Source of the DNA: an uncultured Erysipelotrichaceae bacterium
Lineage (GTDB): Bacteria > Bacillota_I > Bacilli_A > Erysipelotrichales > Erysipelotrichaceae
DNA: 10,491 nucleotides
Direction: 5' to 3'
NCBI GenBank assembly: GCA_900319505.1
Contig: ONOV01000048.1
Coordinates: forward strand, 1-10,491
Part shown: positions 79 to 9,995 of the stretch, one piece after another
Position numbering within the stretch: the stretch's first letter is position 1
How the letters are laid out: every line of letters starts with the position of its first letter
Program-made: the position numbers and the translations under genes
Notes under the pieces: model-generated
Databases searched by the model: none
What the model was told of the DNA's origin: nothing
Seen by the model: the letters and a program-made list of their open reading frames with translations, nothing else

Positions 79-131
79 TTTTGGGAATATAGGGCGCCAT
101 GGTTTCTGACGTCCGGAAAGGCCTTTTTTTC

Positions 132-914
132 ATGAATATTCTTTTTCTGGGCGATGTTGTCGCAGACTGCGGCATTAGAGCCGTTACTTCTGTTCTGCCA
201 GATTTAAAAAAGCAGTATCAGATCGACTTCACGATTGTCAATGGTGAAAATGCTGCGGAGGGCAAGGGCATTACCTACCCCATCTACCAGCAGCTGATCG
301 ATGCCGGGGCAGATGTGATTACCCTGGGCAATCACGCCTTTTCCAAACGTGAAGTGCTTGGTGATCTGAAAAATATGAAGCGACTTATCCGGCCGGATAA
401 TATGGAACCATTCAACAGGGGACAGTCGTATCTCATCTGTGAATGCCGGGGAAAGAAGGTTGCGGTAGCCAATATTCTCGGTTCTGCTTTCATGCGTGCT
501 TCTACCGGGGATCCGTATCTGTGTGCGGAAAGACTGCTGCAGCGCATTCATGCGGATATCATCATCATTGATTTCCATGCGGAAGCGACAAGTGAAAAGC
601 AAGCCATGCTGGAGATTGTGAAAGATAAGGCCGCTGCTCTGATCGGTACACATACCCATGTACAGACAGCTGATGAAAAAATACGGGATGGCTGTGCCTT
701 CATCTGTGATGTCGGCATGTGCGGACCGTATGATTCGATTCTCGGCCGGGACAGGGATGAAGTGCTGTCCAAGATGATGACTGGACAGTTTACCCGCTAT
801 CGGCCGGCCATGGGAGAACCGGTAATCTGCGGGGCGGTAATCGAGATTGATGATCTGTCCAACCGGGCAGTTCATATCAGACGGATTCAGAAACGCCCGC
901 GGGAAGATGTATGA
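132..914 (+). CDS. ymdB: YmdB-family metallophosphoesterase (TIGR00282)
   Basis: This is a cytosolic binuclear metal phosphodiesterase of the YmdB family. In B. subtilis the family member hydrolyses cyclic nucleotides and affects RNA turnover and biofilm/sporulation decisions. From the start at 132 the protein has 260 residues, close to the family norm. Metal-ligand motifs are intact: D8 in ILFLGD, E39-N40 in NGEN, N67-H68 in LGNH, H149 in DFHAEATSEKQA, and H174/H176 in GTHTHVQTAD. The DVGMCGPYDSILG segment (193-205) is also typical. An ATG at 99 would add 11 residues, but family members begin at the M-x-I-L-F-x-G-D strand, and GGAAAGG (115-121) sits 10 nt before ATG 132, so 132 is preferred. 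The usual upstream neighbour rny is not visible here. The same strand continues to a ferredoxin gene with its own promoter. Confidence 0.93.
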   Translation: MNILFLGDVVADCGIRAVTSVLPDLKKQYQIDFTIVNGENAAEGKGITYPIYQQLIDAGADVITLGNHAFSKREVLGDLKNMKRLIRPDNMEPFNRGQSYLICECRGKKVAVANILGSAFMRASTGDPYLCAERLLQRIHADIIIIDFHAEATSEKQAMLEIVKDKAAALIGTHTHVQTADEKIRDGCAFICDVGMCGPYDSILGRDRDEVLSKMMTGQFTRYRPAMGEPVICGAVIEIDDLSNRAVHIRRIQKRPREDV

Positions 915-923
915 GTATTCGGA

Positions 924-952
924 TTGAAACGGATTCTTATCAATGTTAGAAT
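924..952 (+). promoter_or_regulatory. sigma-A promoter for the ferredoxin gene
   Basis: TTGAAA (924-929) and TAGAAT (947-952) are separated by exactly 17 bp, each matching 5 of 6 consensus positions. Transcription would start near 959, just before the AGGAGG site at 961-966, giving a very short leader. CGGATT occurs at 920-925 and again at 930-935, and its complement AATCCG lies at 953-958, so the promoter is bracketed by an inverted repeat that could be an operator. Confidence 0.6.
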
Positions 953-976
953 AATCCGGAAGGAGGCGTTGACAAC

Positions 977-1153
977 ATGCCAGTTACAGTTGATAAGGAC
1001 CTTTGCATCGGCTGCGGTGCGTGCACAGGTGTCTGCCCGGTATCTGCACTTTCTCTCGATGAAGATGGAAAGTCTCAGTGCAACGAAGATGTATGCATCT
1101 CCTGCCTGACCTGCGTCGGCACATGCCCGGTATCTGCGATCAGTGCTAAGTAA
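977..1153 (+). CDS. 2[4Fe-4S] bacterial ferredoxin (58 aa)
   Basis: This is a small soluble electron carrier with two [4Fe-4S] clusters. The translation (begins MPVTVDKDLC, ends PVSAISAK) has two CxxCxxCxxxCP motifs: C10, C13, C16, C20-P21 and C40, C43, C46, C50-P51. These are related by the internal two-fold repeat (both end in CPVSAxS) typical of clostridial-type ferredoxins, whose usual length is 55-60 residues. An extra cysteine, C35, lies between the motifs. The start is supported by AGGAGG at 961-966, 10 nt upstream. It has its own promoter (924-952) and a hairpin 25 nt after its stop, so it is probably a single-gene transcript. The next gene is miaB, a radical-SAM enzyme that needs low-potential electrons. 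A donor role there, or for NrdG, is inference from position and chemistry. Confidence 0.95.
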   Translation: MPVTVDKDLCIGCGACTGVCPVSALSLDEDGKSQCNEDVCISCLTCVGTCPVSAISAK

Positions 1154-1178
1154 GCATTGGCAGATCACAAGGATTTGT

Positions 1179-1210
1179 AAGAAAGACCAGCAGCGATGCT
1201 GGTCTTTCTT
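1179..1210 (+). terminator. hairpin terminator after the ferredoxin gene
   Basis: AAGAAAGACCAGCA (1179-1192) pairs perfectly over 14 bp with TGCTGGTCTTTCTT (1197-1210) around a GCGA loop. The 3' arm is U-rich, but no long T tract follows. It separates the ferredoxin transcript from miaB, whose candidate -35 box overlaps its last two bases. Confidence 0.7.
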
Positions 1211-1237
1211 GTGAAATGGCTGTTGTTGAAATATAAA
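1209..1237 (+). promoter_or_regulatory. candidate sigma-A promoter for miaB
   Basis: TTGTGA (1209-1214) and TATAAA (1232-1237) are separated by 17 bp. Transcription would start near 1244. That leaves the ATG at 1242 without a leader and supports translation from the ATG at 1266, which has AGGA at 1255-1258. Confidence 0.5.
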
Positions 1238-1265
1238 GCGCATGAAAAACATACAGGAAAATGCC

Positions 1266-2672
1266 ATGCCGGACCTCAGGGCGGCGGCAAAACGGACAAA
1301 AGGGGAAGTACAGTACCGTACTTTTGCGATGCCTGAAGAAGCGAAACATCTGGGTACGGGGAAAAAATACCATATTTACACCTATGGCTGCCAGGCCAAT
1401 GTCAGGGATTCTGAAACATTATCCGGCCTGCTGGAACAGATGGATTATACAAAAGCAGAGACAGGGGAAGAGGCTGATCTTGTCATCTTCAATACATGTG
1501 CGGTGCGCCGCAATGCGGAAGAACATGTCTTCGGCAATCTCGGTGAGCTGAAATCATGGCGCAGGAGCCATCCGGATGCGATCATCTGTGTCTGCGGCTG
1601 CATGGTGCAGGAAGAAGCAGTGGTCAATGAACTGCTCAGGAGCTATCCGCAGGTGGATCTGATTTTCGGCACCCATAACATCTATCGTCTGCCGTATCTG
1701 CTGATGGATTATGACAAGACAAAGGAAAAGACTGTGGAAGTATTCTCCGGCCAGGGTGATGTCATGGAAAATATGCCGGTCAGAAGATCTGATCCTTACA
1801 AGGGCTATGTCAACATCATGTATGGCTGCAACAAGTTCTGTACGTACTGCATTGTGCCCTATACAAGAGGAAAGGAACGCAGCCGCCATCAGGAAGATAT
1901 CATTCGTGAAGTGGAAGAGCTGAAGGAACAGGGCTGTCATGAGGTGATTCTGCTGGGCCAGAATGTCAATGCCTATGGCAAGGATCTCGGCATGGAGGAT
2001 GGTTTTACACAATTGCTTGAAGCCGTAGCAGAAACCGGTATTGAGCGGATCCGCTTCTATACGTCCCATCCGCGGGACTACAGCTTCTCGACAATTCTGG
2101 CCATGAAGAAATACCCCAATATCATGAAAGCCCTGCATCTGCCGGTACAGTCCGGTTCTACGGCTGTATTGAAGCGGATGAACCGCGGCTATACGGCGGA
2201 AAGCTATCTGAAGCTGGTGGCAGATATGAAGCGGGAGATTCCGGATATCACCTTTACGACGGATCTGATTGTCGGCTTCCCGGATGAAACGGATGAGGAT
2301 TTCCAGAAGACGCTGGATCTTGTGGATGCGTGCGCGTTTGACGGTGCCTTCACCTTCATCTATTCGCCGCGTGAAGGTACGCCGGCAGCCAGGTTTGAAG
2401 ATCATATCCCGATGCACGTGAAGAAGGAAAGACTTTCTCTGCTCAATGAGAAGATTGCCTACTATGGCCATCTCAACAACCAGAAGTACATGGATCAGAC
2501 GCTCAGAGTATTATGTGAAGGACCTTCCAAGAAGAATCCGGCAGTCTATACCGGCTACAGTGAAGAGAACAAACTGGTCAACTTCACCGGGCCGGCCGGA
2601 CTGGATGGAAAGATCGTGGATGTCAGGATCACTAAGACATTAAGTTTCTCTCTTAACGGTATGGCATTGTGA
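1266..2672 (+). CDS. miaB: tRNA-2-methylthio-N6-dimethylallyladenosine synthase MiaB
   Basis: MiaB is a radical-SAM methylthiotransferase that converts i6A37 to ms2i6A37 in tRNAs reading UNN codons. From 1266 the protein has 468 residues. It shows the N-terminal UPF0004 domain with cluster cysteines C42 (YGCQAN), C78 (NTCAVR) and C112 (CGCM). The radical-SAM CxxxCxxC is C188, C192, C195 in YGCNKFCTYCIVPYTRGKER. Downstream are LLGQNVNAYG, HLPVQSGS and VGFPDETDEDF, then a C-terminal TRAM-like region from about 400 that ends in NKLVNF and SLNG. An in-frame ATG at 1242 would add 8 residues. The start at 1266 is preferred because AGGA (1255-1258) lies 7 nt upstream, the promoter's start point falls near 1244, and conserved family sequence begins at MPDLRAAAKR. 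In B. subtilis, miaB also lies downstream of ymdB. Confidence 0.96.
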   Translation: MPDLRAAAKRTKGEVQYRTFAMPEEAKHLGTGKKYHIYTYGCQANVRDSETLSGLLEQMDYTKAETGEEADLVIFNTCAVRRNAEEHVFGNLGELKSWRRSHPDAIICVCGCMVQEEAVVNELLRSYPQVDLIFGTHNIYRLPYLLMDYDKTKEKTVEVFSGQGDVMENMPVRRSDPYKGYVNIMYGCNKFCTYCIVPYTRGKERSRHQEDIIREVEELKEQGCHEVILLGQNVNAYGKDLGMEDGFTQLLEAVAETGIERIRFYTSHPRDYSFSTILAMKKYPNIMKALHLPVQSGSTAVLKRMNRGYTAESYLKLVADMKREIPDITFTTDLIVGFPDETDEDFQKTLDLVDACAFDGAFTFIYSPREGTPAARFEDHIPMHVKKERLSLLNEKIAYYGHLNNQKYMDQTLRVLCEGPSKKNPAVYTGYSEENKLVNFTGPAGLDGKIVDVRITKTLSFSLNGMAL

Positions 2673-2696
2673 AACAGAGGTTTTCTGCCTTATAAT
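2667..2696 (+). promoter_or_regulatory. sigma-A promoter for the RNase J - ftsK transcript
   Basis: A perfect TATAAT (2691-2696) is preceded by TTGTGA (2667-2672) with an 18-bp spacer; the -35 box overlaps the miaB stop codon. Transcription would start near 2703, giving a leader of about 35 nt that contains GGAGG (2724-2728), 9 nt before the ATG at 2738. It probably serves both the RNase J gene and ftsK, which are 14 nt apart. Confidence 0.6.
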
Positions 2697-2737
2697 AGAA
2701 ATATCGGAAAGCTTTTAGAAACTGGAGGAATCATAAT

Positions 2738-4411
2738 ATGAGCAAAGTACGCATTTTTGCGTTAGGCGGTCTGGATGAAGACGGCAAGAATATGTACGTT
2801 GTGGAAAACAACGATGATATTTTTGTTCTGGAATGCGGACTGAAATATCCGGATGGGGAGCAGTACGGTGTGCAGATGATCATACCGGATTTTACCTATC
2901 TGAAGGAGAATAAGGACAGAATCAGAGGTGTTTTCATCACCCATGGTCATGATGATGTCATGGCGGCTCTGCCCAGCCTTCTCAAGGAAATCCCGGATGT
3001 GCCGGTCTATACGGCACCTTTGACAGCTGCCATGTTTGAGCGCAAGGCAAAGAAGGCCGGCATCAAGCATGTCAACATCCACCGGATCAGACGCAATGCC
3101 CGCTTCAAGATCGGTGATACGAAGATCCGTACGTTCGGTACAACCCAGTCCATTGCGGATGGGTTCGGCGTTGCCATTGAGACGGCGGATGGTTATGTGG
3201 TATACAGCAGTGAGTTCATTGTGGACTATGATACCAAGAATGAAGCATTTGACTTTGACCTGACCAACATCACGGATCTTGCCAGTGAAGGCGTTCTGTT
3301 ACTGATGGCAGAGTCAGTCGGCTGTACCAGAGCCGGTCATTCTTCTCCATACCACCGTATCACCCCGCAGATTGAACATTTCTTTGAAGACAGCAACAGC
3401 AGGATGTTCATCACTCTGTTCAACCAGAATATCTACCGGGTCATCGAAGTTATTGAACTGGCCAATAAGTATAACCGCAGGGTGTTCATCTATGATGAAG
3501 AACTGCGTCAATTGATGAAGGATATGGCTTCTCTTGGCTATTACCGTATTCCGGCAGGCCTTGAAGTACCGCCGGATGATTTCTCCAATGATATGGAGAA
3601 TGTACTTGTCATCATTGCCGGCAATGGCGCCAACATCTTCAAGAAAGTACACAAGATTGCCAACAAGGAAGATGAGAATGTGGAATTCCGCAATACGGAT
3701 ACCGTCATCATCGCATCTCCTGCGGTTCCCGGTACGGAAAGAGAAGAAGCAGGCATGGAAGATGATCTGTACAGAGAAGCGGGCCGGGTGGCAGCGGTTG
3801 ATGCCAAGCGCGCCTTTACCATGCATGCCTCCCGTGAAGATCTCAAGATGATGATGTATCTGATGAAGCCCAAGTACTATATGCCGGTCAAAGGCGAGTA
3901 CAGACAGCTCATTGCCAATGCCAATATTGCGCTGGATATGGGCTTCAGAGCAGACTATATCATCGTCATGGACAACGGCCAGGTGGCGGAAATCGATGAT
4001 GGAAAGCTGCAGAGAAACTTCAACCGTATTGACCACGCGGAGGATGTACTGGTAGACGGTGATGAGAATCTGGACGCTTCCGGCATGGTGCTGAAGGACA
4101 GAGAAACGCTGTCAACCGACGGTGCTATAATTGTCGGTGTCGTGGTGAATCACAAGACCAAGGAGATTATCGGCGGTCCGGATGTACAGAGCCGCGGCGT
4201 CATCTATCTGAAAGATGCTGATTATATTATTCAGGAAATCGGCAATATCATGGAAAAGACAATCAACGAAGCCGTCAAGAACAACACGTATGACAATCTG
4301 GAATGCCGGGCCGATGCCAGAGACCGCATTGCCCGCTATGTCATCCGTGAAACGGGCAAGCGTCCGATGATTCTTCCGGCAATCGTTGAAATCAACACGA
4401 AAGACGAATAA
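2738..4411 (+). CDS. rnj: RNase J-family protein with degenerate active site (RNase J2-like)
   Basis: The 557-residue protein has the full RNase J layout: metallo-beta-lactamase core, inserted beta-CASP domain (about 205-350) and C-terminal oligomerisation domain (about 440-557). Active members are 5'-3' exo/endoribonucleases in mRNA decay and rRNA maturation. The family is clear from FALGGLDEDGKNMYVVE, PDFTYLKENKDRIRG, DTVIIASPAVPG and KRPMILPAIVEI. Several metal-site residues are replaced: HxHxDH reads HGHDDV (H69, H71, D73, then V74), the HSIPD histidine is Q137, TGDF reads SSEF (E159), and PVHGEYR reads PVKGEYR (K385). The family TGSQGE segment reads AGNGAN. Only H363 of HAS stays. It is therefore probably inactive or very weak. 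B. subtilis RNase J2 also departs at the first and last of these sites, and its gene also lies near spoIIIE, so a J2 (RnjB) role as partner of an active RNase J1 is likely. Strong promoter and GGAGG site; ftsK follows. Confidence 0.9.
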   Translation: MSKVRIFALGGLDEDGKNMYVVENNDDIFVLECGLKYPDGEQYGVQMIIPDFTYLKENKDRIRGVFITHGHDDVMAALPSLLKEIPDVPVYTAPLTAAMFERKAKKAGIKHVNIHRIRRNARFKIGDTKIRTFGTTQSIADGFGVAIETADGYVVYSSEFIVDYDTKNEAFDFDLTNITDLASEGVLLLMAESVGCTRAGHSSPYHRITPQIEHFFEDSNSRMFITLFNQNIYRVIEVIELANKYNRRVFIYDEELRQLMKDMASLGYYRIPAGLEVPPDDFSNDMENVLVIIAGNGANIFKKVHKIANKEDENVEFRNTDTVIIASPAVPGTEREEAGMEDDLYREAGRVAAVDAKRAFTMHASREDLKMMMYLMKPKYYMPVKGEYRQLIANANIALDMGFRADYIIVMDNGQVAEIDDGKLQRNFNRIDHAEDVLVDGDENLDASGMVLKDRETLSTDGAIIVGVVVNHKTKEIIGGPDVQSRGVIYLKDADYIIQEIGNIMEKTINEAVKNNTYDNLECRADARDRIARYVIRETGKRPMILPAIVEINTKDE

Positions 4412-4425
4412 CCCGGGGGAAATGC

Positions 4426-7014
4426 GTGAGCACGGATAAGAAAAAGAATAAGGGCAGAAAACAGTCAGCGGAAGAAAAGCTGGCGGTCAGAAATGAAACA
4501 AGACAATGGATCACAATCGTGATCCTTGTTGCTTTTTGCGCAATCGGTTTAATGCGCGCAGGTAAGGCAGGTACATTTATCTATAATGTACTGCGTTACC
4601 TTTTTGGCGGTGTATTCTGGCTGATCCTGCTGTTAATGGCCTTATGGCAGCTGATCAGTATTGCTTCCACGCATAAGGATGAAGAAGATGCCCGCAATCC
4701 GCTGCCGATTATTCTGATCATTCTGGATATTGAACTGCTGGCGGCCTGGCTTTCGGCCGGTACCGTCACCGGTTTTGCGGCTTTGACGCCGTTTCTGGGA
4801 AAATTCTCTTCCTACTTTACAAATGCAGAGATACAGGCCGGCGGCGGGATCGTCGGCGCCCTGTTGTACAGCTGTCTGTCCATCCTGTTCGGGCGCAGCG
4901 GCTGTGTTGTGCTGATGATTGCACTTGTTATTATCGCTACGGTTCTGATGGGCTTTATGGACAGCTATAAGAATGCTTTTTCTTTTATTGCGGACTTCTT
5001 CAGAGTGCCTGAGGATGAGGAAGAAAAGAAGGAAGAAAAAGAAGAAGTACAGGCAGAAAAAGAGCGTCCCAACTTATGGAAGATGCGTGAAGAACATAAG
5101 CAGAAGCACGCTTCTTTCATCAATGCGGATGAGCCGGTCAGAAAGCAGAATATCCGTAAGGTCAATAAGGCACTGCAGGATGGGGAAGAGGTCGTCATCC
5201 GCATGAAACCGACCCCGATCAAACAGAAAAACCTCCATCCCTTTGACATCCGCGTGGATGAAGATGACGGGGATACGAACAATCTGAAACTGTTAAATGA
5301 ATCGGATGACATGGGAAAAGAGAATACCATGAAACTGCAGCGGCCGCTTTCTGAATCAGAACATGTATTCATCAATCTTGATGAGCTGCAGGACAGAGTG
5401 AAGCCGCAGGAAACAAAAGAAGAGAAACAGGCAGTGCCTGAACCGGAACCGGTAAAGGAAGTCAAACCTGTTTCTGAGCCGGTACATGCCCAGTCTGAAA
5501 CAGAAGAAGAGCCTGTCTTTCACTTTCCTGAATCAAACGGTAAAAACCGGCAGACATGCGACTACTCCCATTACCGCAAGCCGGATCCCAATAAAGTGCT
5601 TGATCCCATTCCCCCTCATAACGGACGCAATGTGAATGAACTCAATGCCCAGAAGAAGGGTGAACAGCTGATCAGCGTATTGAGTACATTTGATATTCCG
5701 GCCAAGGTAAAGGGTGTGCATATCGGACCGAGTGTCACCCAGTTTGAAGTGCAGCCGGACGCCAATGTCAAGATCTCAAGAATTGTCAGTATTACCGACA
5801 ATATCAAGATGCAGCTGGAAGCCAGGGATATTCGTATTGAAGCACCGATTCCCGGCAAGAATGCGGTCGGTATAGAAATTCCGAATGAGCAGAGCACCCC
5901 GGTCAAGATGAGAGAACTTGTCTCTCGTACAAACCCAAAAGACAAGAACAGACCGCTTCTGTTCTACCTTGGCAAAGACCTTTCCGGTTCTACTGTGACA
6001 TGCCGCATTGATAAAATGCCGCATCTGCTCATTGCCGGTGCTACCGGTTCCGGTAAGTCAGTCTGTATGAACTCCATCATCTGTTCCATTCTGTTAAGAG
6101 CCAGACCGGATGAAGTGAAGATGCTGCTGATTGACCCGAAGAAGGTTGAATTCACTCCATATCAGAAGATACCGCATCTCATCGGTCCGGTCATCAATGA
6201 TCCGACCCAGGCATCCAACGCCCTGCAGGTCATTGTCAGAATCATGGATGAGCGCTATGACCTGTTTGCGGCAAGCGGTGTCAGAAACATTGCCGGATAT
6301 CATGAAATGCTGGCCAAGATGCCGCCAGAAGAAAGAAAACATACGGCCGATATGCCGTACATTGTTGTCATCATCGATGAGCTGGCGGATCTGATGATCA
6401 CCGCCGGCAAGGAAGTTGAAGCTTCCATTCAGCGTATTACCCAGCTGGCCCGTGCTGCCGGCATTCATCTGATTGTGGCAACCCAGCGTCCTTCCACCGA
6501 TGTCATCACCGGTGTCATCAAGGCCAATATTCCTAGCCGTATTGCTTTCTCCGTTTCCAGTTCTACTGATTCCCGTGTCATTCTGGACCATGTCGGGGCG
6601 GAACGGCTCTTAGGCAATGGCGATATGCTGTATCTGCCGATCGGCCAGAACAGTGCTACCCGTATTCAGGGTGTATTCATCACAGATGAAGAAGTAGAGC
6701 GGATCACCGACGCATTAAGTCCCTGGGGACCGCACTATGATGATTCATTTGTCATGCTGGAAGGCGTAGAAAGCGGTGAATTTACCGGGAATAACGGTGT
6801 CAGTGATGATCCGCTCTTCCAGGAAGTCAAAGACTATGTCATAGAAGCACAGAAAGCATCCACATCTTTACTGCAGAGAAGATTCGGCATCGGCTATAAC
6901 CGGGCAGCCCGTATGATCGATGAGCTGGAAGCGACCGGCATTATCGGTCCGGCCAATGGTTCCAAGCCTAGAGATGTCTTTGCAAAGAAGAAAGAGGATA
7001 CTTCACAGGATTAA
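4426..7014 (+). CDS. ftsK: DNA translocase FtsK/SpoIIIE
   Basis: This is a membrane-anchored, ATP-driven DNA pump that clears chromosomes from the closing division septum. Its 862 residues form a basic N-terminus, four predicted membrane segments (about 28-46, 56-80, 94-120, 141-177), and a long charged linker rich in E, K and P (about 195-395). The motor has Walker A GATGSGKS (538-545), Walker B IVVIIDELADLM (646-657) and the TQLARAAGIHLIVATQRPS segment. The C-terminal gamma winged helix (about 797-850, with LLQRRFGIGYNRAARMIDEL) reads polar DNA motifs in the family. Translation starts at GTG 4426, preceded by GGGGGAAA (4415-4422). The gene lies 14 nt after the RNase J gene, so the two are probably cotranscribed, as rnjB and spoIIIE are neighbours in B. 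subtilis. Without sporulation genes in view, a vegetative FtsK role is the safer call. Confidence 0.97.
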   Translation: MSTDKKKNKGRKQSAEEKLAVRNETRQWITIVILVAFCAIGLMRAGKAGTFIYNVLRYLFGGVFWLILLLMALWQLISIASTHKDEEDARNPLPIILIILDIELLAAWLSAGTVTGFAALTPFLGKFSSYFTNAEIQAGGGIVGALLYSCLSILFGRSGCVVLMIALVIIATVLMGFMDSYKNAFSFIADFFRVPEDEEEKKEEKEEVQAEKERPNLWKMREEHKQKHASFINADEPVRKQNIRKVNKALQDGEEVVIRMKPTPIKQKNLHPFDIRVDEDDGDTNNLKLLNESDDMGKENTMKLQRPLSESEHVFINLDELQDRVKPQETKEEKQAVPEPEPVKEVKPVSEPVHAQSETEEEPVFHFPESNGKNRQTCDYSHYRKPDPNKVLDPIPPHNGRNVNELNAQKKGEQLISVLSTFDIPAKVKGVHIGPSVTQFEVQPDANVKISRIVSITDNIKMQLEARDIRIEAPIPGKNAVGIEIPNEQSTPVKMRELVSRTNPKDKNRPLLFYLGKDLSGSTVTCRIDKMPHLLIAGATGSGKSVCMNSIICSILLRARPDEVKMLLIDPKKVEFTPYQKIPHLIGPVINDPTQASNALQVIVRIMDERYDLFAASGVRNIAGYHEMLAKMPPEERKHTADMPYIVVIIDELADLMITAGKEVEASIQRITQLARAAGIHLIVATQRPSTDVITGVIKANIPSRIAFSVSSSTDSRVILDHVGAERLLGNGDMLYLPIGQNSATRIQGVFITDEEVERITDALSPWGPHYDDSFVMLEGVESGEFTGNNGVSDDPLFQEVKDYVIEAQKASTSLLQRRFGIGYNRAARMIDELEATGIIGPANGSKPRDVFAKKKEDTSQD

Positions 7015-7078: not shown

Positions 7079-7891
7079 ATGGCACAGCAGACACAGAAAC
7101 AGAATGATACAGATTGGACGGATCATCTGCAGGAAAGTGCAGATGAAGGCATGAGCGATGCCCGGGAAGACCGCCTGAATGATGACCTGGATGCTTTTGA
7201 AGCAGATCGTGCCATTCAGAAAGAGAAAAAACACAGAAAAACAGGAACAGCTGTTGCTGTGGTCATTGTCTTAGCAGCTGCCGGTGTCATTACGGCCGGT
7301 ATCGTCGCTGCAACAAACAGCGGCACTAATTACGATACCTACCGTTCCTCCAGTACTGATAAACAGGTTGCCGGCTCCTATTCCTCCAATCCATTCACAT
7401 CCTTTGAAATGGAAGGAGAAACCATTGCCATGCCGACAAAAGTGCAGGATCTGCAGGATGCGGGCTGGACGATCTCATCCGTCAATTCAGATGAACCGCT
7501 GCCTGAAATCATCAGTAAAGATGACTATGGGGTGAATATCAATGCTACTAGGAACGGTATCCGTCTTTTCTATATCAGTGTGGAAAATCTCAGTGATTCA
7601 GATGAAGTGCCGCTGAATGAAGCATATATAACTGATTATTCTTTCTATTCTTCCAGAGATAACGGACTTGATCTTTCCATGCCGTATGATGTGACATTCT
7701 ATGAATCAAGCGATGATGTGACTGCAGCGCTGAAAAAGGAAGGTGCACCCTACCGGATCTATTACTATGATTCTGAAATCTCAAGCATTCATATGGATTA
7801 TCAGGAAGAGAATCATACCTATGATTATGAAATCAGTTTCAATAATGATGGAGAAGTAGACGGAATCAATCTGTATTATTACAGTTATTGA
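7079..7891 (+). CDS. membrane-anchored extracytoplasmic protein of unknown function
   Basis: I do not recognise a named family. The 270-residue protein has an acidic, charged cytosolic N-terminus (1-55, with EKEKKHRK just before the membrane) and one membrane span (about 56-79, Ala/Val/Ile-rich). A Ser/Thr-rich spacer (80-105) follows, then a Tyr- and Asp-rich extracellular region (106-270). Within it, FEMEGETIAMPTKVQDLQDAGW (split at G113: FEMEG, then ETIAMPTKVQDLQDAGW) and the segment from MPYDVTFYESSDDV to the C-terminus resemble Firmicute surface proteins with a helix followed by an antiparallel sheet, of the SmpA/BLIP type. This is a weak, by-eye impression. The orientation N-in, C-out is inferred from the flanking basic residues. 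Translation has a strong site, AAAAGGGGG (7063-7071), 7 nt before the ATG. No convincing promoter was found after the ftsK terminator; read-through is possible. The protein is very acidic apart from the membrane-proximal cluster. Confidence 0.85.
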   Translation: MAQQTQKQNDTDWTDHLQESADEGMSDAREDRLNDDLDAFEADRAIQKEKKHRKTGTAVAVVIVLAAAGVITAGIVAATNSGTNYDTYRSSSTDKQVAGSYSSNPFTSFEMEGETIAMPTKVQDLQDAGWTISSVNSDEPLPEIISKDDYGVNINATRNGIRLFYISVENLSDSDEVPLNEAYITDYSFYSSRDNGLDLSMPYDVTFYESSDDVTAALKKEGAPYRIYYYDSEISSIHMDYQEENHTYDYEISFNNDGEVDGINLYYYSY

Positions 7892-8041: not shown

Positions 8042-8049
8042 TTATGAAT

Positions 8050-8367
8050 ATGTTCACCAATTTTGCATTAGTCGGAACAGTCAAGGAAATGCCAGGGGCG
8101 CAGACAGGAAAAGATGGATCAGAAAGCGCATATATCACCATTGCCTGTGAGAGATCCTTTCCGGAAGCAGATGGTTCATATGGGTTTGATGCCTTCCGTA
8201 TTGCCTTATGGAAAGGTGTGGCAGGAGAGTGCCGGGATTCATGCCGCATCGGCAGCGTTGTCGGGTTCAAGGGGAGAATTGAAAGCATCTGCGTCAGGGA
8301 TGAAGCCGGGGGAGTTCATCTCTGTCCGATGCTGATTGCGGAAAGAGTCAAGATCATCCGGGCATAG
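8050..8367 (+). CDS. ssb: short single-stranded DNA-binding protein lacking the acidic C-tail
   Basis: This is a 105-residue OB-fold protein of the SSB family, which coats single-stranded DNA in replication, repair or uptake. The N-terminal MFTNFALVGTVKEMP matches the family's M-x-N-x-x-L-V-G-R-L strand. The FDAFRIALWKGVAGEC segment matches D-F-I-x-C-V-x-W-x-x-x-A, including W54. The IGSVVGFKGRIES segment matches the G-x-L-x-x-V-x-G-R-L strand. The protein ends right after the OB fold (ERVKIIRA), without the Gly/Gln linker and D-D-x-I-P-F tip that recruit partners in housekeeping SSBs. In this it resembles the competence paralogue SsbB. Five cysteines (C33, C61, C65, C81, C92) are unusual for SSB. 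An in-frame ATG at 8044 lies only 2 nt from AAGGAGG (8035-8041); ATG 8050 is 8 nt away and gives the typical N-terminus. It is a lone gene, not in an rpsF-ssb-rpsR operon. Confidence 0.83.
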   Translation: MFTNFALVGTVKEMPGAQTGKDGSESAYITIACERSFPEADGSYGFDAFRIALWKGVAGECRDSCRIGSVVGFKGRIESICVRDEAGGVHLCPMLIAERVKIIRA

Positions 8368-9059: not shown

Positions 9060-9995
9060 ATGAAACGAAACACATTTTTGAATATGATTCTGGCTGCCGG
9101 ACTCATTCTGACAGTCATTCCCCAGGGCATTGTCCAAATCCACGCATCTGACAGCATCATTCCTGTCTATCGTGTCTATAATCCCAACAGCGGTGAGCAC
9201 TTCTTCACGACTAATGCAAAAGAACAGGCCTATCTGGTCTCGATCGGCTGGAATGATGAAGGCATCGGCTTTTATGAACACAGTGAAACAGGCGATGCGG
9301 TCTACCGTCTTTATAACCCCAATGCCGGTGAACACCACTATACGGATGATAAGAAGGAAAAGGAAGATCTGGTCGATCTAGGCTGGAATGATGAAGGGAT
9401 TGCTTTCTATTCTGATGCTGATCAGGAGATTGAAATCTATCGTGCCTATAATCCCAATGCCCCTGCAAATAATCATAACTACACCGCCAGCATGGCAGAA
9501 CAGAGCAATCTGGTGAACTATGGCTGGAATGATGAAGACATCGCCTGGTACTCCTGCAGCGCGTCGGCTGGCAGTGTTTCGGAAAGAAGAAGTACAATCT
9601 ATCAGCTTTTAACCAGTACCTGCAAGCTCAACAAAGCAGCTGCCTGCGGCATTCTGGCCAATATCCAGCTTGAATCAACCTATAATCCCCGTGCGGTCAA
9701 CGACATTGACAATGGCTATTATGGCCTCTGTCAATGGGATGGAAAGTACAGATGGACAGATTTGATCACTTACTGCCGAAAGACAAATACCGGTCGTTAT
9801 TCAATCGAAGGCCAGGTAGATTTCATGATCTATGATCTGGGACAGAGAGGACAGCTTGAGAACCTGAAAAAGGTGGAAGACAGTGAGGATGGTGCTAAGG
9901 AAGCTGCCATCTACTTCTGTGAAAAATATGAAGTAAGAGAAGATCACTATGACTGTGACAAGCTGGCCGCTGAACTATACCGCAGTCTGAAATAA
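9060..9995 (+). CDS. secreted DUF5648-repeat protein with phage-tail-type lysozyme domain
   Basis: This is a putative exported peptidoglycan hydrolase of 311 residues. A signal peptide covers residues 1-29 (basic MKR, hydrophobic core, cleavage likely after IHA). Three tandem repeats follow at about 37-72, 81-117 and 127-164. Each has the pattern Y-R-x-Y-N-P-N-x-G-E-H, then L-V-x-x-G-W-N-D-E-x-I-x-x-Y, typical of DUF5648 (PF18885), which occurs in secreted Firmicute and actinobacterial proteins next to wall hydrolases. The C-terminal region (about 175-311) resembles the phage tail lysozyme domain (PF18013), with AAACGILANIQLESTYNP, where E205 is the likely catalytic acid, and GYYGLCQWDG (219-228). 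There is no LPXTG motif, transmembrane anchor or SH3 domain, so it is probably free or held by the repeats. GAGG (9049-9052) lies 7 nt before the ATG. Autolysin, toxin and phage-derived origins are all possible. The domain calls are by eye. Confidence 0.85.
   Translation: MKRNTFLNMILAAGLILTVIPQGIVQIHASDSIIPVYRVYNPNSGEHFFTTNAKEQAYLVSIGWNDEGIGFYEHSETGDAVYRLYNPNAGEHHYTDDKKEKEDLVDLGWNDEGIAFYSDADQEIEIYRAYNPNAPANNHNYTASMAEQSNLVNYGWNDEDIAWYSCSASAGSVSERRSTIYQLLTSTCKLNKAAACGILANIQLESTYNPRAVNDIDNGYYGLCQWDGKYRWTDLITYCRKTNTGRYSIEGQVDFMIYDLGQRGQLENLKKVEDSEDGAKEAAIYFCEKYEVREDHYDCDKLAAELYRSLK
9168..9551 (+). repeat. three tandem DUF5648-type coding repeats
   Basis: Units at about 9168-9275, 9300-9410 and 9438-9551 each encode one 36-38 residue repeat. 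They share near-identical DNA at GGCTGGAATGATGAA and at TATAAYCCCAA. The third unit carries a small insertion (PANNHN) in its middle. The similarity points to internal duplication and makes the tract a candidate for copy-number change. Confidence 0.75.

Follow-up and report, generated by a model that had tools for sequence, protein, structure and literature searches.

The RNase J2 gene and its altered active site

A gene for an RNase J2 (rnjB-type) was found at positions 2738-4411 on the forward strand of a 10,491-nucleotide stretch of DNA, hereafter the window, from an uncultured bacterium placed in the Erysipelotrichaceae (contig ONOV01000048.1, assembly GCA_900319505.1). The frame was intact and open over 557 amino acids. 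The encoded protein, hereafter the query, was identified from the open reading frame, NCBIfam models, domains, a tree and fold matches to PDB entries. A score of 427.8 bits against TIGR00649 (NCBIfam, cut-off 400) placed it in the RNase J family, as did the fold matches, and its 428.1 bits against the RNase J1 model NF047419 (cut-off 820) did not qualify it as a J1. Metallo-beta-lactamase, beta-CASP and RNase J C-terminal domains were present (PF17770, PF22505, PF07521, PF00753). The beta-CASP domain (PF22505) covers residues 221-336 (3398-3745, forward strand) and the C-terminal domain (PF17770, 89.1 bits) residues 451-552 (4088-4393, forward strand). An initial annotation of this DNA had pointed to a well-kept C-terminal region, and KRPMILPAIVEI was indeed located in the C-terminal part of the query. 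This region was the best conserved one in J1 and in J2 alike.

Three of the seven ligands of the two-metal J1 site (H74, H76, D78, H79, H142, D164 and H390 in B. subtilis J1 numbers) were retained by the query. The motif HGHDDV, codons 69-74 (2942-2959), keeps H69, H71 and D73 and has V74 in place of the metal-2 ligand His79. Q137 (3146-3148) stands in place of the metal-1 ligand His142, E159 of the motif SSEF (3212-3214) in place of the bridging ligand Asp164, and K385 of VKGEYR (3890-3892) in place of the metal-2 ligand His390, all on the forward strand. H363 (3824-3826, forward strand) corresponds to His368 of the 5'-phosphate pocket of J1 and was present in all 99 J2s of the query family (f1) and in all 20 of its sister family (f2). 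These residues, and the motif AGNGAN beginning at residue 294, had been read correctly in the initial annotation: HGHDDV, Q137, SSEF with E159, AGNGAN and K385 were all found in the translation. Its description of a protein that had lost most catalytic metal ligands was overstated, as H69, H71 and D73 are kept and E159 replaces one carboxylate with another.

The J2 of S. epidermidis (PDB 6k6w; PMC7864078) is one of the closest comparisons. It likewise retains three of the seven ligands (H74, H76 and H142), so that by count the query is not more degenerate than this J2; the initial annotation had called it more degenerate than B. subtilis J2, which is an overstatement. The D-to-E change is also seen in S. 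epidermidis J2 (TGEF), and E159 is therefore not special to the query. The two sites are altered differently. S. epidermidis J2 keeps His142, has H for D78, A for H79 and Q for H390, and is described as binding one Mn through H76, H78, H80, H144 and E166, whereas the query keeps D78 and carries V74, Q137 and K385. At the five corresponding positions the query has H69, H71, D73, Q137 and E159, three of them identical, so the one-metal ligand set of S. epidermidis J2 is incomplete in the query.

Distribution and conservation of the J1-J2 pair

A second full RNase J, for which the initial annotation had suggested a search, was found in the same assembly, which totals 1.56 Mb in 239 contigs and is 92% complete. 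It lies on contig C167 next to a gene that appears def-like from its open reading frame, and carries HGHEDH, HSIPDS, TGDF, TGSQGE, TTGHA and HGEY, and is thus an intact J1. This rules out that the query is the only RNase J of the genome. A family search of the assembly gave no RNase J over the cut-off beyond these two, with one weak match of 24.4 bits. The nearest named proteins, among 120 listed of 6250 matches, were those of Lactimicrobium massiliense and of a Stecheria/Grylomicrobium entry, at 82% identity.

In a tree of 225 proteins (three PDB references and 222 proteins taken from the loci), the 54 J1s and the 171 J2s were split with a support of 1.0. The query fell on the side of S. epidermidis J2, the only J2 reference, and not with J1. 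The backbone inside the J2 part was weakly supported at several nodes. Eight positions were surveyed, the seven ligands and H368, and all eight residues were present in 54/54 J1s and in 0/171 J2s. H390 was lost in 168 of the 171 J2s (K in 130, I in 19, others in the rest), H79 in 147 and H142 in 107, while D164 was retained in 42 and replaced by E in 122. Retention was high for H74 (157/171) and H76 (156/171). The phylum search comprised 120 genomes, all of the query's class, and the counts for lysine at position 390 (K390) hold for that class. Three J2s of the query family (L158, L169 and L174) have His at position 390 despite lacking His79, an apparent re-gain or independent retention.

RNase J matches were found in 60 of 60 nearby genomes, with a single match in seven. 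In the class, 149/149 genomes matched RNase J and 146/149 had two or more matches, not every second match having been assigned to J1 or J2. Among the three single-match genomes of the class, G069 (L281) and G140 (L283), 98% and 96% complete, had only a J2-like protein, and G200 (L279) only a J1-like RNase J over the cut-off; the G140 and G200 proteins were not placed in the tree. These three cases may be gaps or true loss. Internal stops had been listed for f2 J2s. In 20 f2 loci, the frames were open to their end, near query residue 552 or 555, and the listed stop was therefore taken as the gene's own terminal stop.

The same altered residues recurred in orthologues from many separate assemblies, which rules out chance or a sequencing error. 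The substitutions are fixed, and the case that the initial annotation had named against itself, orthologues with the canonical residues, was not encountered. Purifying selection on J2 was clear. The median ratio of non-synonymous to synonymous substitution rates (dN/dS) was 0.158 for J2 (49 family sequences, 152 of 1176 pairs) and 0.086 for J1 (14 genus sequences, 11 of 91 pairs), values from non-independent pairs and unmatched J1 and J2 sets, with many pairs near synonymous saturation. An assembly error or a pseudogene is rejected on the shared states together with the low dN/dS. It is very improbable that the query is an assembly artefact or a paralogue decaying towards its disappearance: J2 does fall below J1 in identity in matched genomes (0.73 vs 0.83 within the genus, 0.38 vs 0.57 between f1 and f2), but the frames are intact, dN/dS is well under 1, the states are shared between assemblies and two or more RNase J matches are the rule in the class.

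The J2s formed a graded series of site loss. One group of families (26 proteins) retains most of the metallo-lactamase ligands, with mainly H390 changed, to I in 17. Another group, with f1 and f2, has K390 and lacks H79. Over the eight positions the pattern was HHDVQEHK in 84/99 f1 J2s, and HHDVHEHK in 14/20 and HHDAHEHK in 6/20 f2 J2s. Families that read TGA as Trp (f5, f16, f23 and f24), labelled mollicutes here, gave patterns such as NSYNSDHK and DKESGNRQ. In the nine mollicute genomes read for both proteins, J1 was intact in 9/9 and J2 lacked H74, H76, H79, H142 and H390 in 9/9; three more mollicute J2s, from genomes with J1 unread, show the same loss. Parsimony puts a single loss of H390 at the root of the J2 part, the gain of K390 together with the disappearance of H79 on one branch (tree support only 0.10), D164E on a later one (support 0.59) and H142Q within f1. 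K390 occurred together with H79 in 0/130 J2s and I390 in 18/19, but the independent events behind these counts are few and no significance is claimed.

Conservation differed between the retained and the replaced residues. With entropies between the 0 and 18th percentile, H69, H71, D73, E159 and H363 were among the most conserved positions of the query family. The replacements V74, K385 and Q137 lay at the 23rd, 28th and 37th percentile, and at the 31st, 36th and 53rd with 33 representatives under 75% identity; Q137 is therefore kept no better than an average position. In the 12 mollicute J2s the same positions showed ordinary conservation (25th to 74th percentile). Both the query and the mollicute proteins are orthologous J2s beside an intact J1, but the mollicute site has lost nearly all ligands and is not specially conserved, whereas the remodelled site of the query family is. 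The query is therefore regarded as an intermediate stage whose changed pocket is still selected, and a one-metal or charge-network pocket may, given the high conservation of H69, H71, D73, E159 and H363, still do something. A novel centre, catalytic or sensory, made up of K385, E159, D73, H69 and H71, for instance a metal-free 5'-end or nucleotide sensor, would fit the frequencies of K385 (93/99 f1, 20/20 f2), E159 (98/99), D73 and H363 (each 99/99) and the absence of K390 beside H79. It is nevertheless improbable, since the retained ligands are better conserved than V74, K385 and Q137, and residue 385 is His in three f1 J2s.

Gene neighbourhood and RNase Y

The gene order of the window is ymdB-miaB-J2-ftsK, all on the forward strand. 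A TIGR00282 metallophosphoesterase, which we take to be ymdB, lies at 99-914, miaB at 1242-2672, 65 nt upstream of J2, and a ftsK/spoIIIE-type translocase at 4426-7014, 14 nt downstream. A promoter scan upstream of J2 gave 6 promoter-like sites, with 4.7 (standard deviation 2.5) expected. The position of ftsK after J2, a J2-type neighbourhood known from B. subtilis as rnjB-spoIIIE, was found in the window, in 74/80 GTDB family loci, 10/10 long genus loci (the two sets being partly the same contigs) and 18/20 f2 loci.

A cluster rny-(ymdB)-miaB-rnjB-ftsK was seen across window positions 99-7014 and loci L072-L161. Among loci with at least 4.3 kb of upstream sequence, RNase Y preceded J2 on the same strand in 6/6 long genus loci and in 38/55 GTDB family loci, two sets that partly share contigs; the other 17/55 had none within 5 kb. 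The two genes are about 10 kb apart in G003 and G020, and hundreds of kb apart in G037, G041 and G050, the three f2 genomes in which a single large contig carries both. The source assembly had no RNase Y over the cut-off, while 45 of 50 relatives have one. The missing match is likely due to the contig edge, because the contig begins just upstream of ymdB, where relatives carry rny. The clustering suggests shared expression of two RNA-decay proteins. RNase Y was over the cut-off in 6/12 mollicute genomes (f5 5/5, f24 1/1), with two f23 matches below it, and in 0/4 f16 genomes, all of which carry a ligandless J2. Despite the clustering in many f1 loci, RNase Y was therefore rejected as a necessary partner of J2, and J1 is the more likely one.

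Three further genes were noted downstream. A 270-amino-acid protein at 7079-7891, without a Pfam or NCBIfam match, apparently has one membrane helix (judged by eye) followed by an extracytoplasmic part. A 107-amino-acid SSB-like protein (PF00436) at 8044-8367 follows ftsK in the same order in 21/80 GTDB family loci, many loci ending before that gene. The predicted protein at 9060-9995, with DUF5648 and Phage_lysozyme2 domains, is possibly secreted and wall-active.

A probable partner of J1 and the role of J2 catalysis

The query is a J2 that has lost its second metal site and has a conserved, remodelled pocket. We consider it probable that it serves the intact J1 encoded on contig C167 as a partner with no catalytic activity or very little. 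The J2-type non-catalytic subunit proposed in the initial annotation was upheld as regards J2 identity, the intact J1 and the fixed substitutions of the orthologues, whereas its lack of catalysis is a prediction from the residues at the site. Metal site 2 is lost, with V in place of H79 and K in place of H390. The query would pair with J1, probably via the C-terminal region, and may supply RNA binding or 5'-end positioning through the conserved channel and His363, while J1 would cut. The site-1 remnant (H69, H71, D73 and E159), still under selection, may hold one metal, or K385 may hold it together in place of the second metal.

A similar pairing is known for eukaryotic CPSF100 beside CPSF73 and INTS9 beside INTS11, comparable in manner of working only, as these belong to a different family and act in 3'-end processing. 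In S. aureus, a J2 active-site mutant is reported to grow like wild type and a deletion to cause strong growth defects, and the authors proposed a structural role (PMC3937233). The protein, with motif HGHEHA, is thus needed and its active site dispensable under the conditions tested there; for the query the same is suggested by sequence. E. faecalis J2 is described as a weak exonuclease whose H69A and H71A variants still bind J1, and second-metal residues are stated not to be conserved in J2s (PMC5383250). Weak activity and J1 binding independent of the active site are likewise predicted for the query, but the exonuclease activity of E. faecalis J2 was measurable and depended on H69 and H71.

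Several observations weigh against a non-catalytic role. That catalysis by J2 can matter is seen from the H69A and H71A variants of E. faecalis J2, which fail to restore pilus expression (PMC5383250), and from S. mutans, whose J2 is reported to be potent (PMC6759994). The query retains H69, H71, D73 and E159. The J2 of S. epidermidis, altered to a similar degree at its site, is reported as mostly monomeric, with one Mn and endonuclease activity (PMC7864078). J2 is also less conserved than J1. Pairing is not absolute in the draft genomes, with a single match in 3/149 class genomes, and no J2-like match was found in two drafts of the genus sample, G001 and G027 (92% and 80% complete). Residual one-metal activity is accordingly the main doubt. 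A low-activity nuclease like S. epidermidis J2, with H69, H71, E159, D73 and perhaps Q137 as ligands, would be a slow endonuclease that matters in the cell. Its four candidate ligands are nearly invariant in f1, and f2 retains His142 in 20/20. We nevertheless find it rather unlikely, as the His142 position is Q in 88/99 f1 J2s, H79 and H390 are both replaced (V, K), and mollicute genomes retain an orthologue with none of the five histidine ligands.

A J2 working without its active site is already known from S. aureus. The K390 form, the near-complete mollicute erosion and the graded series were not met in the literature found, and no report that J2 has lost catalytic residues in either Erysipelotrichia or Mollicutes was found in titles and abstract openings, subscription papers and preprints aside. 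According to a survey of mollicute translation genes from 2014, all Mollicutes have J1 and J2, and their nuclease roles are assumed there under the explicit proviso "if this also applies" (PMC4014445); the present findings bear on that annotation of mollicute J2.

RNase J2 acts as a nuclease in some species, whereas in others its part is structural. As J1 is intact in 54/54 and J2 has lost one to nearly all ligands, yet is usually kept, the J1-J2 partnership rather than J2 catalysis is argued to be the selected function in the sampled phylum. More speculatively, and as a proposal we hold only tentatively, K390 may have replaced the second metal ion when H79 was lost in a large J2 clade, giving a conserved, non-cutting pocket that reads 5' ends and steers J1, after which the mollicutes would have erased the site and left J2 as a pure J1 partner. 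If true, this lineage would be a natural series of dissections of the role of J2 without catalysis.
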